Source: a bacterium (GTDB taxonomy: Bacteria > Blakebacterota > Blakebacteria > Blakebacterales > Blakebacteraceae). Taken from it: a stretch of 6,064 bases of DNA. This document shows, piece after piece, positions 2,738 through 4,216 of the stretch (the stretch's first letter is position 1; each line of letters begins with the position of its first letter). The notes beneath the pieces were generated by a model. The model was not told where the DNA came from and made no database searches. It saw only the letters and a program-made list of their open reading frames with translations. The position numbers and the translations under genes are program-made. The stretch covers positions 1 through 6,064 of the forward strand of contig JALGVQ010000243.1 of assembly GCA_025774615.1 (NCBI GenBank), written 5' to 3'.

Positions 2738-4216
2738 ATGTCCACCCCACCACTTGTCGCCATAGTGGGACGTCCCAACGTGGGGAAATCAACCCTGTTC
2801 AACCGGATCATCCGGCGCCGGCAGGCCGTGGTGGATGAGGTGCCGGGTGTGACCCGGGACCGGGTCTATGCGCACGCAGAATGGGCAGGCGCCCGTTTCC
2901 GCCTGGTCGACACCGGTGGACTCGTACCCAACTCGAAAGATCCGATGGAGATAGCGATCCGTGCCCAGGCCCAGGTCGCCATTGATGAAGCGTCCCTTGT
3001 CCTCTTTGTCGCAGATGTCGAAACAGGGGTAACCGACCTCGACAGTTCCGTAGCCGCTGAACTGCGCCGATCGGGTTGCCCTGCAATGCTGGCAGTCAAC
3101 AAGGTGGATAACGAGCACCGGGCCCCCGGCATCCATGAATTCCACACACTCGGGTTAGGAACACCGTGGCCGGTGGCAGCCATCTCGGGCAGGGGAAGTG
3201 GGGATCTGCTCGATGCTCTGCTGGAGCAACTCCGGGAGATGTACCCCGATAATGATGCTCTTGTCCCTGCAGCGGATGTTGAAGGGGAGGGAGAGGGTCT
3301 CGAGGGGCCGATCGAGATAGCTGTTCTGGGAAGACCGAATGTCGGAAAATCTTCCTTCGTGAACACCGTCTGCGGCAGTGAGCGGGTGATCGTCAGTGAG
3401 ATAGCCGGGACCACGCGGGATGCCGCCGACATTGAAATGAAAATGGGAGATCGAGATCTCACCCTGATCGATACCGCCGGCCTGAGGAAGCGCACGAGGG
3501 TGAAGGAAAACATTGAGTATTACAGCGCCCTCCGTGCTCTGAAGAGCCTGGACAGATGCGAGGTGGCACTGCTTCTCATCGACACTCCAGATGGCCTCGG
3601 CAGTCAGGACACGCGGATCCTCGAACGTATTCTTGATCGGGGAAAGGGTGCCGTCATCGTGATGAACAAATGGGACCTGGTAGAGAAGGAGACTGGCACC
3701 GCAGAAGCATTCGAGCGGGAACTCCGTTACAAACTGCCCTTTGCCAACTTCGTTCCGATCATTTTCATCTCTGCTCTGACAGGGCAGCGGGTACACCGCG
3801 TCCTCGAGCTGGCACTCCGTGCCGCCGACGCGCGGAACCATCGGATACAGACATCACAATTCAACGAATTCATCGGATCGACCCTGACGACTCCGTGCCG
3901 CCGACGCGCGGAACCATCGGATACAGACATCACAATTCAACGAATTCATCGGATCGACCCTGACGGGAAACGAAGCGATCACGCCTGCCATGGGAGACGT
4001 ACGCATCTCCTACGCGGTCCAGGCGGGAACCGCGCCCCCCCATTTCATCTTTTTCGTCAACTATCCATCAAAGGTGAAGCCGAACTTCAAGAGGTATCTG
4101 GAACGTCGCATCAGGGAAGCATTTACCTTCGAGGGAACTCCGATCAGGCTTTCCTTCCGGGCCAAGACTTGACACCCGTCCGGGGGAGCCTTACGATGGC
4201 TCCACCCGACGCCTGA
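2738..4216 (+). CDS. der: Ribosome-assembly GTPase Der (EngA), frameshifted near its C-terminus
   Basis: Der carries two tandem GTPase domains and a C-terminal KH-like domain and acts in 50S ribosomal subunit assembly. Domain 1 shows GRPNVGKS (11-18), DTGG (58-61) and NKVD (121-124). Domain 2 shows GRPNVGKS (198-205), DTAG (245-248), NKWD (310-313) and SA (345-346). An acidic linker (about 175-190) joins them. Residues 1-384 read as a normal Der; from residue 385 (position 3890) the frame is wrong because of an exact 76-bp tandem duplication (3814-3965). The remaining 108 residues (TPCRRRAEPS onward, ending at the stop 4214-4216) match nothing in the family, so most of the KH-like domain is lost. 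The proper C-terminus survives in another frame at 3966-4172. With one copy removed the gene would run to 4172 and encode 452 residues, a usual length. The start is supported by GAGGAG (2726-2731), 6 nt upstream. Whether the shift exists in the living cell or is an assembly error cannot be decided here. Confidence 0.93.
   Translation: MSTPPLVAIVGRPNVGKSTLFNRIIRRRQAVVDEVPGVTRDRVYAHAEWAGARFRLVDTGGLVPNSKDPMEIAIRAQAQVAIDEASLVLFVADVETGVTDLDSSVAAELRRSGCPAMLAVNKVDNEHRAPGIHEFHTLGLGTPWPVAAISGRGSGDLLDALLEQLREMYPDNDALVPAADVEGEGEGLEGPIEIAVLGRPNVGKSSFVNTVCGSERVIVSEIAGTTRDAADIEMKMGDRDLTLIDTAGLRKRTRVKENIEYYSALRALKSLDRCEVALLLIDTPDGLGSQDTRILERILDRGKGAVIVMNKWDLVEKETGTAEAFERELRYKLPFANFVPIIFISALTGQRVHRVLELALRAADARNHRIQTSQFNEFIGSTLTTPCRRRAEPSDTDITIQRIHRIDPDGKRSDHACHGRRTHLLRGPGGNRAPPFHLFRQLSIKGEAELQEVSGTSHQGSIYLRGNSDQAFLPGQDLTPVRGSLTMAPPDA
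3814..3965 (+). repeat. Exact 76-bp tandem duplication inside der
   Basis: Bases 3814-3889 and 3890-3965 are identical over all 76 positions. Matching stops at once on both sides (3813 is C where 3889 is G; 3890 is A where 3966 is G), so there are exactly 2.0 copies and no leftover microhomology. Since 76 is one more than a multiple of three, the second copy shifts der into a wrong frame. The unit encodes the end of GTPase domain 2 and the beginning of the KH-like domain (about residues 359-384). Confidence 0.98.
3966..4172 (+). pseudogene. der: Displaced C-terminal KH-like domain of der, out of frame with its own start
   Basis: Read from 3966, this stretch gives GNEAITPAMGDVRISYAVQA and onward through PPHFIFFVNYPSKV to IRLSFRAKT, stopping at TGA 4170-4172. 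This is the usual end of Der: the KH-like domain includes the PPxFxxFVN-type motif and a basic helix (KRYLERRIREAF). It lines up directly with residue 384 of the upstream part once one 76-bp copy is ignored. There is an ATG at 3990 but no convincing ribosome site before it, so separate translation is unlikely. The coding sequence shows no other decay, which argues that the shift is very recent or artificial. Confidence 0.92.
4169..4197 (+). promoter_or_regulatory. Putative internal promoter for plsY-gpsA, overlapping the native der stop
   Basis: TTGACA (4169-4174) is followed by a 17-nt spacer and TACGAT (4192-4197), which matches 4 of 6 bases of TATAAT including the important first T-A and last T. 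The -35 box includes the native der stop TGA. Transcription would begin near 4204, about 50 nt before the plsY start. The first ten bases, TTGACACCCG, are identical to those of the tRNA-Gly promoter at 1167-1176, with the same spacer length. Confidence 0.45.
4178..4210 (+). other. Imperfect hairpin between der and plsY
   Basis: GTC-C-GG-G-GGAGCC (4178-4190) can pair with GGCTCC-A-CC-C-GAC (4198-4210) around the 7-nt loop TTACGAT: 11 pairs with two mismatches, the inner six pairs unbroken. No T-run follows, so it is not a canonical rho-independent terminator. It could form in read-through transcripts from der and may act as an RNA-processing or stability element. It overlaps the putative plsY promoter, so only one of the two may be functional. 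Confidence 0.4.

Follow-up and report, generated by a model that had tools for sequence, protein, structure and literature searches.

The gene for the GTPase Der (der, also engA) is split into two reading frames in the window by a perfect tandem duplication of 76 bp, and we conclude with high confidence that this duplication is an assembly artefact, one copy of which does not exist in the organism. The preliminary description of this DNA had ranked an assembly error first among its explanations, and this ranking is strongly supported by six further pairs of the same kind in the same assembly, by the core genes that such pairs split, and by a same-genus relative that has only a single copy. The window is the entire contig 27 (C27, 6064 bp) of a draft genome that totals 3.30 Mb, consists of 324 contigs, and is 82% complete.

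Results

The tandem pair and the reading frames of der

Tandem Repeats Finder and a second repeat search agreed on a repeat at 3814-3965 with a period of 76, 2.0 copies, 100% match, and zero indels, which confirms the exact 76-bp tandem duplication (3814-3889 identical to 3890-3965) reported earlier. The two identical copies adjoin each other directly, and no remnant of a third copy is present. The reported absence of flanking microhomology was also found: base 3813 is c where base 3889 is g, and base 3966 is g where base 3890 is a, leaving no matching base past either end of the pair. A perfect 76-bp repeat is far beyond what chance could produce. The window contains another short repeat at 2123-2145, a 12-bp unit GGGAATGGATTA present in 1.9 copies, which lies in frame within the DUF512 radical-SAM gene and looks like an ordinary coding repeat.

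The open reading frame in frame 1 extends over 2738-4216 and encodes 492 amino acid residues; its TIGR03594 match ends at 3889, and the 108 codons that follow carry no Der match. The frame at 3888-4169 matches TIGR03594 at positions 345-432 (E 2.5e-20) and contains PF14714 in full (positions 1-81, E 4.7e-26). The earlier claims that der is knocked out of frame, that it gains a nonsense tail of 108 residues, and that its true C-terminus stays undamaged in another frame are thus all borne out. Between 21 and 25 Der residues are encoded twice across the two frames, and these correspond to exactly the repeated stretch. A second der copy elsewhere in the genome was considered and rejected: neither a second der nor another KH-like domain was found in the rest of the draft genome (82% complete), in agreement with the preliminary description, which had seen none. 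The Der model found matches in all 41 genomes searched, several of them partial or below the cut-off, and Der lies in one continuous frame in most of the other genomes, including the same-genus genome.

Table 1. Features of the window around der, and the other perfect two-copy pairs of the assembly.
Feature	Location	Strand	Remarks
der (engA), both GTPase domains, first frame	2738..3889	+	PF01926 twice; TIGR03594 1-367, E 2.5e-133
First 76-bp copy (C27)	3814..3889	+	Correct Der frame passes through; frame-1 TIGR03594 match stops at its end
Second 76-bp copy (C27)	3890..3965	+	Frame shifted relative to first part of der; absent from same-genus genome
Spurious 108-codon tail of the frame-1 open reading frame, with stop	3890..4216	+	No Der match in frame 1 past 3889
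Intact C-terminal part of der (KH-like domain), other frame	3888..4172	+	PF14714 1-81/81, E 4.7e-26; TIGR03594 345-432
DUF512 radical-SAM gene, plsY, gpsA, tRNA-Gly	window		Ordinary neighbours of der
Start of putative MerR-type regulator gene	window		Neighbour of der, as read from the sequence
38-bp pair	L021 (contig C18) 3965-4040		Splits PEMT/LmtA-like methyltransferase gene; second half is a weak match
35-bp pair	L035 (contig C28) 16320-16389		Splits rplP (L16); PF00252 1-128 and 95-132, in two frames
28-bp pair	L064 (contig C57) 6099-6154		Splits DUF4886 gene; both halves below curated cut-off
25-bp pair	L121 (contig C306) 2438-2487		Between NrfD and GCV_H (glycine cleavage H protein), in a 646-aa frame
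22-bp pair	L131 (contig C316) 2652-2695		Splits L25/TL5 gene; PF01386 1-49, then 35-82 and TL5 domain
18-bp pair	contig C46		

Perfect two-copy pairs across the assembly

If the duplication in der arose from a join error, the same assembly would be expected to hold further pairs that vary in length and are indifferent to the reading frame. The search for tandem pairs therefore covered periods of 12-600 bp in 140 stretches totaling 1,269,076 bases (1.27 of 3.30 Mb, 39% of the genome), and a pair was regarded as suspicious when it was a perfect tandem pair whose match length was exactly equal to its period. Seven such pairs were found, with lengths of 76, 38, 35, 28, 25, 22, and 18 bp. The six besides the pair in der are unrelated in sequence and in length, and each consists of only two copies. 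At all seven sites the copies adjoin directly with no Ns between them, and the homology at their ends extends for zero bases. The periods of six of the seven pairs are not multiples of three, compared with approximately one in eight of the other short repeat arrays of the genome (Fisher P 0.01); the latter arrays are nearly all multiples of three with partial or multiple copies, and they look like ordinary coding repeats. Control DNA of 643 kb contained no such pair, where 3.5 were expected at the rate of this genome (P 0.03); it comprised 80 loci from 80 other genomes (393 kb) and, from E. coli K-12, five stretches of 50 kb each (250 kb). A search for spaced direct repeats in this genome gave no further class of suspicious pairs, and the flanks of the N gap at 15141-15151 of contig C7 do not overlap.

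At least five of the seven pairs split a gene into two frames, and the genes split include der, rplP, which encodes ribosomal protein L16, and the gene for L25/TL5. For rplP, the portion of the first PF00252 match past the junction probably reflects over-extension of the model alignment. Two different domains flank the 25-bp pair within a single long frame, and the apparent NrfD-GcvH fusion may be a false one created by this pair. Der and L16 are both required for making ribosomes. Because of this requirement, a living cell is not expected to carry all of these lesions. Der and L16 cannot both have been lost from a single living cell by such duplications.

Comparison with a same-genus genome

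Among the genomes available for comparison, the closest relative belongs to the same genus, and its contig is identical to JALGWK010000078.1 (MAG Meg22_46_Bin_213) over the 3,388 bases compared. The preliminary description had proposed looking for the same duplication in related genomes; in this relative der is single-copy, as are rplP and the L25 gene, these three being the loci that are cleanly comparable. Alignment to the relative opens a gap of exactly 35 bp in rplP and one of 22 bp in the L25 gene. At der, both copies in the window align to one and the same stretch of the relative, and the gap in the global alignment is 76 columns. The Der of the same-genus genome is full length in one frame (TIGR03594 1-432). 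The relative offers no usable match for the pairs in the DUF4886 gene, in the methyltransferase gene, or between NrfD and GcvH, and at the 18-bp pair the alignment was too poor for a decision.

Overlaps at contig ends

Of the 42 directed overlaps found between contig ends in this assembly, 36 are exactly 114 bp long. Many contigs of the assembly could be joined through these overlaps.

Discussion

The exact 114-bp end overlaps are what a de Bruijn graph with a k-mer size of about 115 would be expected to leave. At 76 bp or less, every one of the seven pairs falls short of 114 bp, which implies overlaps below the length that the graph could merge. We propose that two contigs had ends that overlapped by 76 bp, too short for a k-mer graph with k of about 115, and that they were placed end to end without removal of the overlap, which would write the common stretch twice. 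The reads would then hold a single copy, and the join was most likely made during paired-end scaffolding or gap closure. A fixed overlap of k-1 with k = 77 was considered as the origin of the 76-bp length and rejected, because the pair lengths vary and the contig ends overlap by 114 bp. One observation stands against the simple join model: not one of the seven pairs has a base beyond its ends that happens to match, an outcome with a probability of approximately 0.018 if the flanks are random, and the model does not explain it. IDBA-UD with --maxk 115 was used on the Guaymas Basin 'Meg' bins (PMC9258230), and IDBA-UD is also named in the paper on new FCB phyla that used such bins (PMC9727166). 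The contig-end overlaps, together with the identity of the relative, suggest that the genome was assembled by the same pipeline as the 'Meg' bins.

Scaffolding that leaves overlapping flanks duplicated has been documented for IDBA-UD and CLC (Genome Res. 2020, PMC7111523). As in that error, the overlapping flanks of contigs would here be written twice and genes are broken; however, Ns separate the copies in the published case, whereas the copies described here abut. The pairs also resemble the false duplications reported in Genome Biol. 2022 (PMC9516828), which are absent from the organism and arise when sequences are joined, when gaps are filled, or when merging fails. Unlike the present pairs, those duplications come from vertebrate genomes and are linked for the most part to heterozygosity, and an assembly gap usually lies between the copies.

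The strongest biological alternative is a recent, real duplication in part of the population that became the consensus, with its carriers either losing Der or living on a truncated Der. The two copies are identical, as expected of a new duplication, but the same lesion also occurs in rplP, the L25 gene, and at least two more genes of the same genome, and it is implausible that several duplications, each independent and lethal or nearly so, should all have reached the consensus. Moreover, the homology expected for slippage is absent at all seven sites. Ku-dependent end joining, considered as a source of homology-free duplications, was set aside when no Ku was found in the genome searched (82% complete). 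We regard a recent duplication as unlikely. Real duplications produced by an unrecognized process, one able to copy segments of 18-76 bp that lack homology at their ends and to hit core genes reversibly, are more improbable by a wide margin.

Phase variation, in which the loss of one copy would restore der as a reversible on/off switch, agrees with the finding that the frames of the two Der halves differ by the repeat length, such that losing one copy restores the frame. A contingency locus, however, needs a gene whose loss is tolerated, whereas der and the L16 gene are core genes; der is single-copy here, and its product was matched in every genome searched, if partially or below the cut-off in several. 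The relative has only one copy of the 76-bp stretch, and the genes that hold the other pairs are unrelated housekeeping genes, the pairs themselves sharing neither sequence nor length. A switch at der is accordingly very hard to credit, even more so than the unspecified copying process. Both a mutation and a switch are disfavored because neither would hit der, rplP, and the L25 gene alike in one genome. A programmed frameshift, or a split Der made as two proteins, would fit halves that are each intact in their own frame, but it is the least credible reading of all, given the residues encoded twice over exactly the repeated stretch and the single continuous Der frame seen in the majority of the other genomes searched, among them that of the same-genus relative.

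The assembly error therefore remains the preferred explanation, and the 76-bp pair is almost certainly no biological feature. Even without reads, seeking perfect two-copy pairs elsewhere in the assembly, core genes included, can reveal that a broken gene in a draft genome is an assembly error. Taken at face value, this assembly would wrongly suggest that the organism has lost Der, L16, and L25, and it would enter false frameshifts and possibly a false NrfD-GcvH fusion into databases.
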